Assembly: GCA_024279425.1 (NCBI GenBank)
Contig: JAJRRO010000116.1
Location: 124,001-188,000, forward strand
Direction of reading: 5' to 3'
Source: Bacteroidota bacterium
GTDB lineage: Bacteria; Bacteroidota; Bacteroidia; Flavobacteriales; Flavobacteriaceae
Length of the DNA stretch: 64,000 bases
The notes under the pieces are model-generated. The model saw nothing but the letters and a program-made list of their open reading frames with translations. It had not been told where the DNA came from and did no database searches. Made by a program: the position numbers and the translations under genes. How positions within the stretch are numbered: position 1 is the stretch's first letter; the number at the start of each line of letters is the position of its first letter. This document shows, one piece after another, positions 26,850-35,472 of the stretch.

Positions 26850-27383
26850 ATGTTAAGATTCATTAAGACCTTACCATATTTGTTCTTCCTAATTTTACTT
26901 GTACAATGTAAAAAGCAGCCAGCCAAGCCCACAGGATTGGTCGTTGAAAAAGCCATGGTCGTCTCGGCACGCCAAGAAGCTTCAAAAGTTGGGCTTCAAA
27001 TTCTTAAAAAAGGAGGAAATGCCTTTGACGCCATGGTGGGTACCGAATTGGCATTGGCCGTGGCATATCCTTTTGCCGGTAACCTTGGCGGTGGGGGTTT
27101 TATGGTATATCGCAGAAACAAAGGGGACATAGGTGCCCTAGATTATCGGGAAAAAGCACCACTATCTGCCCATAAAGACATGTATTTGGATTCACTGGGT
27201 AATGTAATCCCCGGTAAAAGTACAATGGGTGCAACGGCAGTTGGCGTACCCGGTACTATAGCTGGAATTTTTGAAGTGCATGAAAAATTCGGAAGCCTAA
27301 CTATGGCCGATATTATGGCCCCGGTTATTGCATTGGCGGAAAATGGGATAATTGTGACCAAAAAACAAATAGTTCTGCGGTGA
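26850..27383 (+). pseudogene. gamma-glutamyltransferase, 5' fragment
   Basis: The first 170 or so codons are normal. There is a lipoprotein signal (lipobox LVQC), ARQEASKVGLQILKKGGNAF, AVAYPFAGNLGGGGFMVYR, LDYREKAP and GVPGTIAGIF. Those are the N-terminal half of the GGT large subunit. Homology stops after ENGIIVTKKQ, and a stop follows five codons later. Full enzymes are about 560 residues and contain the autocleavage Thr in the missing half, so this product cannot mature or catalyse. The break coincides with the start of an unrelated segment. Confidence 0.85.
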
Positions 27384-31612: not shown

Positions 31613-33835
31613 ATGGCAGAAAAAAAGAAGTTTGGAACCTTTGCGGGCGTGTTTACACCTTCTATCCTAACCATTTTAGGCGTAATCATGTATATGCGTC
31701 TGGGTTGGGTAGTAGGTAATGCCGGTCTTATAGGTGCCATTGGCATTATCATCATTGCTCATGTTATAGCTGTTTCCACAGGTTTAAGTGTATCCTCAGT
31801 CGCTACCGATAAAAAAATTGGGGCCGGAGGTATTTATTATGTCTTGTCACGGAGCATGGGGATTCCTATTGGTGGGTCCATCGGGATTGCATTATATGTT
31901 GGGACGGCTTTTTCAATAGCCTTGTATTTAATTGGCTTCTCAGAGAGTTTTAATTCGTATTTCGGTTTGGGCATGCTGGTCAACGACTTTCGGTTGACAG
32001 GTACGATCGCCCTTGTGGCTTTGACTGCCTTGGCCCTAATCAGTACTTCTGTTGCCTTAAAAGCACAATTCTTTATACTTGCAGCCATTATAGTTTCTTT
32101 GATTTCCATCTTTTTTGGCACTACGGAATTCGCGCCGCAGTCTGTGTCCCTATTTTCGACAATTGATGCTGTTCCTCTCGAAGTGGTTTTTGCTGTATTC
32201 TTTCCTGCAGTTACCGGTTTTACGGCGGGTATTGCCATGAGTGGCGATTTAAAAGACCCGAAGCAATCCATTCCCATTGGGACTTTGGCAGCAATTGGCG
32301 TAGGACTTGTGGTTTACATTCTATTAGCTGTTTTTATGGCATATGCTATAAATTCTGACCTTCTCAAGACGGATTATAATATTCTTATGAAGATGGCCTT
32401 GTTTGCTCCAGCTGTGGTTGCAGGTATTTGGGGAGCTACCTTGTCATCAGCTTTGGGAGGGATTCTTGGCGGGCCAAGAATCCTACAAGCCATGTCAATA
32501 GACAAAGTAACCCCTAAGATATGTGGAAAGGGAAAAGGAGCGAACGACGAGCCGGTTAATGCCTTGTTTATGGTATTTATCATAGCAGAGGCTGGTATTC
32601 TAATCGGGGAATTGGATGTTATTGCCCGTGTGGTGTCTATGTTTTATTTGACCGCTTATGGTTTTATCAATATCTCCTACTTTTTGGAAAGTTGGGCGAA
32701 TCCCGATTTTCAACCTAGTTTCAAAATAAAGCGTTGGATTGGTTTATTAGGTTTTATTGCCTGTTTTGTGGTAATGTTCAAGTTAGACATGATAGCAATG
32801 TTGGCCGCGATGGGAATCATCAGTGCCCTATATTTGGGACTACAACGCAAGGAGGTGCAACTACAATCCAACGATGTTTGGCGCAGTGTCTGGGAGAATG
32901 TGGTGAACAAAGGTTTGAAGAAGATAGATGATAAGGATAATGAAAACACCAATTGGAATCCTAATATTATTCTTTTCAGCGGCAAAAGTGATCACCAATC
33001 CTATTTACTTGAATTAGGGAAAACCGTTTCTGGTAGAACAGGTATGGTCACCAATTTTAAACTTATTCTGGACAAACACAATGATATACCACTTCGAAAA
33101 ACCGAGCAAACTGTAAGGGACCAGAATTTTAAGGAACTGGGGATTTTTGCACGGCAAATAAAGGTGGACAACATCTATACGGGAATAACGAACATTGCAT
33201 CGACTTTTGGGTTTTCAGGAGTTGAACCCAATACCATTATGATGGGATGGCCCAAAGGTCTAGAAAACTCCATTAAATATGCAAAAATGACCGAAACCCT
33301 CCTGCATTTGGATTATAATCTTTTGTATCTGGATTTTGACAGGAAAGCGAAGTTCGGTGATTACCAGACCGTAGATCTTTGGTGGCGTGAAACCGATAGC
33401 AAGAATGCCGAGATGATGTTGAATATTGCCCGATTCATTATTGCGTCACCCAAGTGGAACAATACCAATATCAGAGTGCTTTTCGTAAATAACAACAACG
33501 TGGATATTGATTTAATACAGCGTAAAATAGCTAAGTTAGTGGAAGATTTGCGGGTCAATGTTCAAATCAAAATCATTAACAACGCCGTTGAGCAAAAGCC
33601 CTTTTATGATATTATTGCAGAAGAATCTGCTACTACCGATTTGACCCTGGTAGGCATACCCAATTACAAAATTGAAAAACAGGCAGAATTTGTGCTAAAG
33701 ACAAACCATTTGTTTGAAACCATTGGTTCTACCCTATTGGTCAAGGCCGCGAACAACTTTAATGAGCTCGATTTGGACCTCCTAGAGAATGATAAATCCA
33801 TTATATCTCAGTCAAGCCATACTCATTCAAAATAA
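31613..33835 (+). CDS. SLC12-type cation-chloride cotransporter / APC permease
   Basis: This 740-residue protein begins KFGTFAGVFTPSILTILGVI and MYMRLGWVVGNAG, the first membrane helix of SLC12 (NKCC/KCC) transporters, followed by a 12-helix APC core (to about residue 420) with GFTAGIAMSGDLKDPKQSIP. The C-terminal 270 residues are a soluble SLC12-like domain (LLELGKTVSGRTGMV, GLENSIKYAKMTETLLHLD). It probably moves K+ or Na+ with Cl- or an amino acid across the inner membrane. Its last 35 bases overlap the convergent K+-channel gene. Confidence 0.87.
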   Translation: MAEKKKFGTFAGVFTPSILTILGVIMYMRLGWVVGNAGLIGAIGIIIIAHVIAVSTGLSVSSVATDKKIGAGGIYYVLSRSMGIPIGGSIGIALYVGTAFSIALYLIGFSESFNSYFGLGMLVNDFRLTGTIALVALTALALISTSVALKAQFFILAAIIVSLISIFFGTTEFAPQSVSLFSTIDAVPLEVVFAVFFPAVTGFTAGIAMSGDLKDPKQSIPIGTLAAIGVGLVVYILLAVFMAYAINSDLLKTDYNILMKMALFAPAVVAGIWGATLSSALGGILGGPRILQAMSIDKVTPKICGKGKGANDEPVNALFMVFIIAEAGILIGELDVIARVVSMFYLTAYGFINISYFLESWANPDFQPSFKIKRWIGLLGFIACFVVMFKLDMIAMLAAMGIISALYLGLQRKEVQLQSNDVWRSVWENVVNKGLKKIDDKDNENTNWNPNIILFSGKSDHQSYLLELGKTVSGRTGMVTNFKLILDKHNDIPLRKTEQTVRDQNFKELGIFARQIKVDNIYTGITNIASTFGFSGVEPNTIMMGWPKGLENSIKYAKMTETLLHLDYNLLYLDFDRKAKFGDYQTVDLWWRETDSKNAEMMLNIARFIIASPKWNNTNIRVLFVNNNNVDIDLIQRKIAKLVEDLRVNVQIKIINNAVEQKPFYDIIAEESATTDLTLVGIPNYKIEKQAEFVLKTNHLFETIGSTLLVKAANNFNELDLDLLENDKSIISQSSHTHSK

Positions 33836-34874
33836 TCTCCCATTCCTTGCTTTCAATAACCTCCAGTATTTTTTGGGATAGGGCCTGTTCCAATTCAATA
33901 TTTCCCTTAGCCAGTCCGAAAGCATAAAATTGCACATTGAACTTTACCGGTAGAATAGTAAGTTTCTGAAGCGTCGAATCTTGTCGAATTCGGTATTTGA
34001 GGATAGGCTCGTCGTAAATAAATGCTTGAAGTTCATTGTTCCCTAAATCTTTCAAGCCAGGAACGACACCATCATACAAACGAATATCCTTAAAAAAATG
34101 GTTCCTCAGAAATTCGTTACTTCCTGAATTACCAATAGATCCAACGGTATGTTCTTTAAATTCATTAAAACTATCCGGATTACTATTCAATTGGTCTATA
34201 GTTAAGCTCGAGGCTATACTGGCTGTCAATCCACTAATAAACAACAGTCCTACAAACATCAATAACAAAGCCACTGCCCTACCCATTTTGCTTTGAGGTG
34301 CTTTATCTCCATAACCGACTGTAGTGAGGGTAACCGCTGACCACCAAAGACCGTCCCAAATGCCTCTTGGGGAAGACCTAAACTGTTTCTCATTGGATTT
34401 TCGCTCAAAAAACCACACCATTGAACCAAACAACAATATAATGAACAACAATACCAATAAACCTTTTAAAAAGTTAATACTAAAGAACCCCTTTACAAAG
34501 CTTATGAATTTTTGAATCGAAGAAATCTCGGCAACAGCAATCGTTGAATTGGAAGCATAAAAAGAATTTGTGAATTCCATCTTTTTGCTTCGTTCACTGG
34601 TAATGGTCAACGGATTAATACTCACGTCAATGGAACCCTCTTCCAAAGCTTTGAGCATTTCGTTAAAATCCATTGGAAGAAGTTCATATTCAAATTTAAG
34701 GTCCTTGGCAACCCTTTCCCATAACCAAACATTAATACCTTCAAGAGATTCCCCATTTTCCACAATAAAAGGAGGAGCTGCAGTGTAACCCACCCTAAGC
34801 GTATCAGTTTGGAACTGCCCGAATATGGTGAAAGATGACAACACAGAAAGAAAGAAAAGCGCTATTTTGTTCAT
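33801..34874 (-). CDS. GluR0-like ligand-gated potassium channel
   Basis: This 357-residue protein has a signal peptide, then the first lobe of a periplasmic amino-acid-binding domain (LRVGYTAAPPFIVENG; TITSERSKKMEFTNSFY with the carboxylate-binding Arg). Membrane helix M1 lies at about 133-154, and a pore loop WDGLWWSAVTLTTVGYGDKA has the K+ filter TVGYGD at about 185-190. M2 is at about 197-217, and the second lobe (TVGSIGNSGSNEFL, FIYDEPILKYRI) runs to the end. This S1-M1-P-M2-S2 order without M4 is that of cyanobacterial GluR0. The ligand should be an amino acid. Confidence 0.88.
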   Translation of the reverse strand: MNKIALFFLSVLSSFTIFGQFQTDTLRVGYTAAPPFIVENGESLEGINVWLWERVAKDLKFEYELLPMDFNEMLKALEEGSIDVSINPLTITSERSKKMEFTNSFYASNSTIAVAEISSIQKFISFVKGFFSINFLKGLLVLLFIILLFGSMVWFFERKSNEKQFRSSPRGIWDGLWWSAVTLTTVGYGDKAPQSKMGRAVALLLMFVGLLFISGLTASIASSLTIDQLNSNPDSFNEFKEHTVGSIGNSGSNEFLRNHFFKDIRLYDGVVPGLKDLGNNELQAFIYDEPILKYRIRQDSTLQKLTILPVKFNVQFYAFGLAKGNIELEQALSQKILEVIESKEWEIILNEYGLTEI

Positions 34875-35046: not shown

Positions 35047-35472
35047 ATGACCATTAAGCTCCTTCAAGAATCGGACATCAATGAGGCCTTGAGCCAACAA
35101 ATCCATGACCTCTTTAAGCAATTGAATGCTGAAATCGGGCAATTGGATATTAAAAATGTGCTGCTACAAGGAAACGATTTCATCTGTGCCTGTTGTTGGG
35201 AGGATAAGCAATTGATCGGGATGGCATCTTTAGCTACCTACAAGGTAATCTCCGGATATAAGGGAATGGTTGAGGATGTGGTGGTATCTGCAGCGTGTCG
35301 CGGTAAGGGTATTGGAAAAAAACTCATGCAAAGCCTTATAGATGAAGGCGAAAAGAGACAATTAAAAGAAATCATATTGTTTAGTAACCATCACAGAAAA
35401 CCAGCCATTCAATTGTATAAAAGTTTGGGTTTTAATCTAAAAGAAAGTGGAATGTATACCCTTAAATTATAA
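35047..35472 (+). CDS. GNAT family N-acetyltransferase
   Basis: This 141-residue protein has the acetyl-CoA pyrophosphate loop RGKGIGKKLMQ in motif A, preceded by VEDVVVSAAC, and the C-terminal motif B segment AIQLYKSLGFNLKESGMYTLKL. It is the single-domain GNAT fold in full. The acceptor substrate cannot be told. The overall pattern is closest to small GNA1-like enzymes. It ends one base before the convergent repressor gene's stop. Confidence 0.9.
   Translation: MTIKLLQESDINEALSQQIHDLFKQLNAEIGQLDIKNVLLQGNDFICACCWEDKQLIGMASLATYKVISGYKGMVEDVVVSAACRGKGIGKKLMQSLIDEGEKRQLKEIILFSNHHRKPAIQLYKSLGFNLKESGMYTLKL

Follow-up and report, generated by a model that had tools for sequence, protein, structure and literature searches.

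What does a channel shaped like an animal neurotransmitter receptor do in a marine flavobacterium, and does it act alone or together with the genes around it? The question is raised by an intact open reading frame (ORF) of 357 amino acids on the minus strand at 33801-34874 of a 64,000-nucleotide stretch of a Bacteroidota genome (assembly GCA_024279425.1, contig JAJRRO010000116.1, positions 124,001 to 188,000), hereafter called the window. The original prediction, made from the letters of the window, described a glutamate-receptor-like K+ channel; its coordinates are exact, and the strand, which it left unstated, is the minus strand, the plus-strand frame over the same interval containing many stops. 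Judged by its sequence, the protein is an ordinary addition to a bacterial family that is already known. We put at about 0.88 the probability that it belongs to the GluR0-type ("Group 1") prokaryotic ionotropic glutamate receptors (iGluRs) and acts by the mechanism proposed below.

The single chain of 357 residues had been described as running in the order S1-M1-P-M2-S2, with two binding lobes (S1 and S2), two membrane helices (M1 and M2) and a pore loop (P), and this order is borne out by the Pfam domains, the alignment of the lobes and the hydropathy. The SBP_bac_3 match is split around the pore module (residues 26-353, E-value 2.3e-22), and Ion_trans_2 (residues 143-224, 5.3e-17), Lig_chan (residues 141-243, 1.1e-11) and Lig_chan-Glu_bd (residues 26-113, 6.3e-8) were matched as well, with two membrane segments in the hydropathy profile at 126-159 and 195-226. 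In NCBIfam, 13 families matched at E<=0.01, mainly amino-acid-binding proteins, with GlnH at the top, and K+ channels, all of them scoring under their own curated cut-offs. The chain begins with a signal-peptide-like segment recognized by eye (residues 1-20, 34815-34874; this and all following parts of the gene on the minus strand), which is helical at 2-21 in a low-confidence structure model. The S1 lobe (residues about 24-117, 34524-34805), containing R95 of the TSERSKK motif, was placed by Pfam, alignment to GluR0 and conservation, and M1 (residues about 133-157, 34404-34478) by hydropathy and the low-confidence model. The pore helix and K+ selectivity filter (residues about 170-190, 34305-34367) were delimited by Pfam, conservation and the match to KcsA, and the filter TVGYGD lies at residues 185-190, just where it had been claimed. 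M2 (residues about 196-226, 34197-34289), which ends in GLTASIASSLT, is defined by hydropathy, conservation and the Lig_chan match, and the S2 lobe (residues about 238-357, 33804-34163), with D288 of YDEP, by alignment to GluR0 and conservation. The chain does not fit the solute-binding proteins of ABC transporters, which are continuous and lack a channel pore, because the pore module interrupts SBP_bac_3. We found no third transmembrane helix after S2 like the M4 of eukaryotic-type iGluRs; at the threshold used there are two hydrophobic segments only, and the filter is TVGYGD. The gene is under purifying selection: against one orthologue, 94% identical, the non-synonymous rate (dN) was 0.030 versus a synonymous rate (dS) of 0.243 by NG86, and 0.032 and 0.197, respectively, by YN00. 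A chance origin of the ORF and its domain pattern is rejected on the strength of the Pfam E-values, the purifying selection and the well-supported 26-row clade around the gene.

In Ger et al. (2010, PMC2950845), a K+ filter sets Group 1 apart, Group 1 comprises 12 of 22 channels, and total conservation in Groups 1 and 2 is reported for the S1 arginine and S2 aspartate that touch glutamate's carboxylate and amino groups. The window protein has the same features, namely a single chain in which two lobes flank a pore loop and two transmembrane segments, the K+ filter, and the S1 Arg and S2 Asp; it belongs to a Flavobacteriaceae clade. We examined how well these residues are conserved across 99 aligned rows, of which 98 are distinct and two viral; the figures are biased upward because a profile of the same family had supplied most of the rows. 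R95 and D288, which the original prediction had picked out as the carboxylate-binding Arg in TSERSKK and an S2 acidic residue in YDEP, are present as described: they align with the carboxylate Arg and the amino-group Asp of GluR0, are kept in 99/99 and 95/99 rows, respectively, and both occur in all 26 rows of the window gene's clade. GYGD is kept in 98/99 rows. The sole row without the GYGD filter, L152:1742-2962, sits on a very long branch in the tree. At the end of M2, GLTASIASSLT, which resembles the gate motif SYTANLAAFLT of animal iGluRs, retains T217 in 83/99 rows, A218 in 98/99 and A221 in 81/99.

Comparison with solved structures extends this picture to both lobes and the pore. A single-protein phmmer search of the PDB placed glutamine-type binding proteins at the top (6h30 best, E 3.9e-21), followed by plant, NMDA and AMPA receptors among the best 60 of 509 matches. 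A family profile built from nine rows matched the GluR0 ligand domains over both lobes, with 2pyy ("Ionotropic glutamate receptor bacterial homologue", which we take to be the NpGluR0 ligand domain) first among the listed solved bacterial glutamate-receptor ligand domains at E 1.1e-34, and 1iit/1ii5 of Synechocystis GluR0 at about 2.6e-33; 2pyy covers the ligand domain only (228 residues), whereas the window protein is a full receptor chain. AMPA receptors gave one unbroken match to the profile, spanning roughly its positions 31-344 with both lobes and the pore (E about 1e-27). When residues 122-300 were searched alone, KcsA was the best match (E 1.2e-11), and the pore helix and filter could be aligned as LWWSAVTLTTVGYGD in the receptor and LWWSVETATTVGYGD in KcsA, which shares these elements but has no ligand lobes. 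GluR0 from Synechocystis sp. PCC 6803 (slr1257) is like the window receptor in its S1-M1-P-M2-S2 order and K+ filter, according to PMC2950845 and PMC13099474. The likeness includes the carboxylate Arg and the amino-group Asp, and both lobes align to 1ii5/1iit. The two proteins are nevertheless distant, being matched through the profile and not within the best 60 of 509 of the single-protein search, and the host of the window receptor is a flavobacterium.

The original prediction had called such receptors rare in bacteria. This is not valid for Flavobacteriaceae because 61 of 397 genomes, in 43 of 237 genera, have a profile match at E<=1e-40; in a sample of the phylum, the numbers were 31 of 395 genomes and 19 of 170 genera (own genome counted in both, at most five candidates scored per genome). 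Channels shaped like animal neurotransmitter receptors are thereby frequent enough in this family for genetics, and the window gene extends the known family in a well-populated bacterial lineage. The window's own genome holds one full receptor copy and three weaker matches spanning <=110 query residues. A scan of the genome_contigs collection gave two relatives. Among 12 genomes of the same genus, own included, six have a match at E<=1e-30 and four (own, G002, G008 and G011) have orthologues at 70-100%. The nearest named record found is a metagenome-assembled genome titled Maribacter sp., at 94%. None of 50,697 phage records matched the receptor, and nine of 72,556 plasmid records did, at 24-30% identity. 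In a tree of 99 rows, built without the full-length cyanobacterial GluR0, the window gene falls in a 26-row Flavobacteriaceae clade (25 distinct, support 100/99) nested in a 33-row group (100/99), whose sister group consists of 29 rows of other Flavobacteriaceae channels (99/93); one genome, G011, has one channel from each of these two groups. In three genomes (G234, G248 and, on contig C193, G337), the receptor matches come in two pieces, with stops inside in G248, which suggests broken copies in some lineages.

How would such a channel work? Because the window receptor is homologous to Synechocystis GluR0, we propose the following mechanism; the homology makes amino-acid-gated K+ flux a sound inference. 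A signal peptide would direct S1 into the periplasm. M1, M2 and, between them, a re-entrant P-loop inserted from the cytoplasm would make up a quarter of a KcsA-like K+ pore, inverted relative to KcsA. S2, back in the periplasm, would complete a clamshell with S1, and four chains would assemble into the presumably K+-selective channel. An alpha-amino acid bound through R95 (carboxylate) and D288 (amino group) would then close the clamshell, and this closure would pull the M2 bundle open at GLTASIASSLT, so that K+ could flow down its gradient. The channel would probably serve to adjust membrane potential or cell volume quickly as amino acids or K+ outside the cell change. For Synechocystis GluR0, PMC13099474 reports that the channel restored growth of the K+-uptake-deficient E. 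coli strain LB2003, that it requires its lobes, that it slows shrinkage during one phase of KCl upshock, and that PhoA fusions, some of them not significant, gave a topology opposite to that of KcsA.

Several observations weigh against this interpretation. No GluR0 domain was among the best 60 of 509 matches of the single-protein phmmer search, and the glutamine-type binding-protein tandem 6h30 also leads the profile search (E 4.5e-40), ahead of the GluR0 domains. The AlphaFold model, calculated from a six-row alignment, is weak, with a mean predicted local distance difference test score of 57.5 and a predicted template modelling score of 0.34, and does not confirm the S1-S2 clamshell; its helix and strand order is compatible with S1-M1-P-M2-S2. 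Foldseek on this weak model ranks AMPA-receptor chains first (E 1.3e-14), which lends weak support to the receptor fold, with template modelling scores (query) of 0.35-0.42 among the best 50 rows. The charge distribution is ambiguous on topology: over the 99 rows, the mean net charge is +1.47 in the M1-P linker (positive in 68/99), +0.75 before M1 (positive in 58/99) and -1.72 after M2 (positive in 5/99), and the window protein itself carries +2 ahead of M1 as well as +3 in the linker. In the binding pocket, D10 of GlnBP, which we take to be a side-chain contact, corresponds to Y30 in the receptor. We gave up naming the ligand from the pocket columns because, among the contacts that can be placed, only those to the alpha-amino and alpha-carboxylate groups are well conserved, the other pocket positions vary, and D10 is replaced by Y30. 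Finally, the literature search gave no experiment on the window gene's clade, found no paper joining glutamate receptor, Bacteroidetes and GluR0, and among the matches listed held no title or abstract start on flavobacterial receptors. Alternatively, the ligand might not be an amino acid, or the channel might be constitutively open and serve only to buffer ion stress. Pocket positions besides R95 and D288 do differ among clades (for example Y30 and 249-253), and in PMC13099474 Synechocystis GluR0 supported growth of K+-deficient E. coli in a medium without listed glutamate. We nonetheless regard this alternative as improbable, given that both R95 and D288 are conserved throughout the 26 rows of the clade and that in the prokaryotic receptor, according to PMC2950845, the corresponding residues are in contact with glutamate at its carboxylate and amino groups.

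The genomic neighbourhood offers two further readings, in which a GluR0-type receptor would be coupled to an adjacent gene. The suggested tie to the SLC12 transporter concerns a cation-chloride cotransporter homologue at 31613-33835 on the plus strand, which is convergent with the receptor gene and overlaps it by 35 bp. Functional coupling of the two in one unit for K+ and volume regulation would suit this arrangement, the (near) neighbourhood of both genes in three further genomes of the genus (G002, G008 and G011), and the link of GluR0 to cell volume in Synechocystis (PMC13099474). Convergent genes, however, share no promoter, and in the 97 loci that we fetched (the G002 locus and one G095 locus twice each; flank lengths vary and some end at contig ends), an SLC12 gene lies within the flanks in only four, that is, in three genomes all of the same genus, with G002 counted twice. 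The two genes are separated in G008 by three ORFs, which encode 225, 282 and 596 amino acids. The SLC12 orthologue (86-100%, one partial by contig) is present in 10 of the 12 genomes of the genus, against 4 of 12 for the receptor orthologue (70-100%). In G010, the gene for a GNAT acetyltransferase follows SLC12 by about 150 bp (between match ends) with no receptor in between, and in G004, G006 and G007, where SLC12 and GNAT are both present, a threshold of E<=1e-5 gave no receptor match in the interval. In the window, the GNAT gene (35047-35472, plus strand; identified by Pfam and comparative loci) is the divergent neighbour of the receptor. Because such SLC12 and GNAT loci occur without it, the receptor is an optional gene in a fixed slot, of which GNAT marks an edge. 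The loci, the counts of 10/12 versus 4/12 genomes and the G010 locus led us to reject the SLC12 coupling as unsupported and very improbable; the SLC12 gene is probably a mere neighbour, outside the system. The receptor-free G010 locus is at the same time a natural control for an intact, compact and testable protein of 357 residues. Sensing of glutamate released by a nearby gamma-glutamyltranspeptidase (GGT) appears hardly more credible. Of the 97 loci, 15 have a GGT-type gene (one identified by Pfam) <=4 genes from the receptor, and 14 of the 15 belong to the window's clade, but GGT also adjoins GNAT without a receptor hit in three of 30 GGT loci (L267, L271 and L275; genomes G005, G022 and G029), and we judged this coupling unlikely because that adjacency persists without the receptor. 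In the window itself, the GGT is merely a remnant at 26850-27383, a 177-residue ORF that matches only residues 15-170 of a 561-residue homologue intact in sister genomes, and another GGT, 45% identical, is encoded elsewhere in the genome. An S24-type regulator and a DUF4130 gene are each found near the receptor in 20 of the 97 loci, all in the window's clade and in the same block (one genome twice).

The observation of most interest to us concerns a conserved partner gene in the sister group. Within it, a 20-row clade has a protein of 951-981 residues encoded directly upstream of the channel on the same strand in 20/20 loci, the two ORFs, each taken from its first start codon, being -118 to +7 nt apart (L077, L080, L082, L084, L086, L087, L088, L090, L093, L096, L098, L101, L110, L112, L114, L115, L116, L133, L134 and L135). 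In the 14 upstream proteins scanned, Reg_prop propeller repeats were found in all and a GAF-like match at E<=0.01 in 12, and by eye the protein has a single transmembrane segment and a coiled coil. When one propeller protein was searched against 395 Flavobacteriaceae genomes at E<=1e-80, with at most two candidates scored per genome, it matched 18 places in 15 genomes, including the query's own, and by position each of the 18 directly precedes, in the same orientation, a receptor place of the profile search of 397 genomes; the G337 receptor is itself split. The limit of two candidates per genome and a threshold that favours close homologues mean that this search may have overlooked third or more divergent copies elsewhere. 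The window's genome gave no match at E<=1e-80. The propeller and channel genes are thus a candidate two-gene channel unit by their sequences and arrangement, and in a literature search on the pairing none of the matches listed holds a propeller term. We tentatively suggest, as a possibility that the odds do not favour, that the GluR0-type channels of Flavobacteriaceae are not one stand-alone type: the sister clade might be an obligate two-gene unit, in which a sensor with propeller, single transmembrane segment and cytosolic GAF-like domain serves as an auxiliary subunit, and the window gene might be the stand-alone form. If so, the window gene would show what the channel does without the auxiliary subunit, and should the partner gate or tune the channel, bacteria would offer a way to test how auxiliary subunits arose in the receptor superfamily. 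Outside the operon-bearing clade, L121:620-3862 encodes a 1080-residue propeller relative convergent to a receptor gene.

GluR0-like channels were also found on virus contigs. One, a 337-residue ORF with TTVGYGD (L168:3992-5005), comes from an IMG/VR contig of 264 kb, on which a terminase was also matched (E 1.3e-27); a related channel, 43% to the former, lies on a 40-kb IMG/VR contig (L170:3827-5041). The contig end truncates a third match, L169. No terminase was matched on the contigs of L169 and L170, both of which may be fragments. In a literature search on virus-borne GluR0-like channels, none of the matches listed mentions a glutamate receptor. An upstream ORF that looks similar by eye accompanies both L168 (3205-3951) and L170 (80-892), in the latter several ORFs away from the channel.

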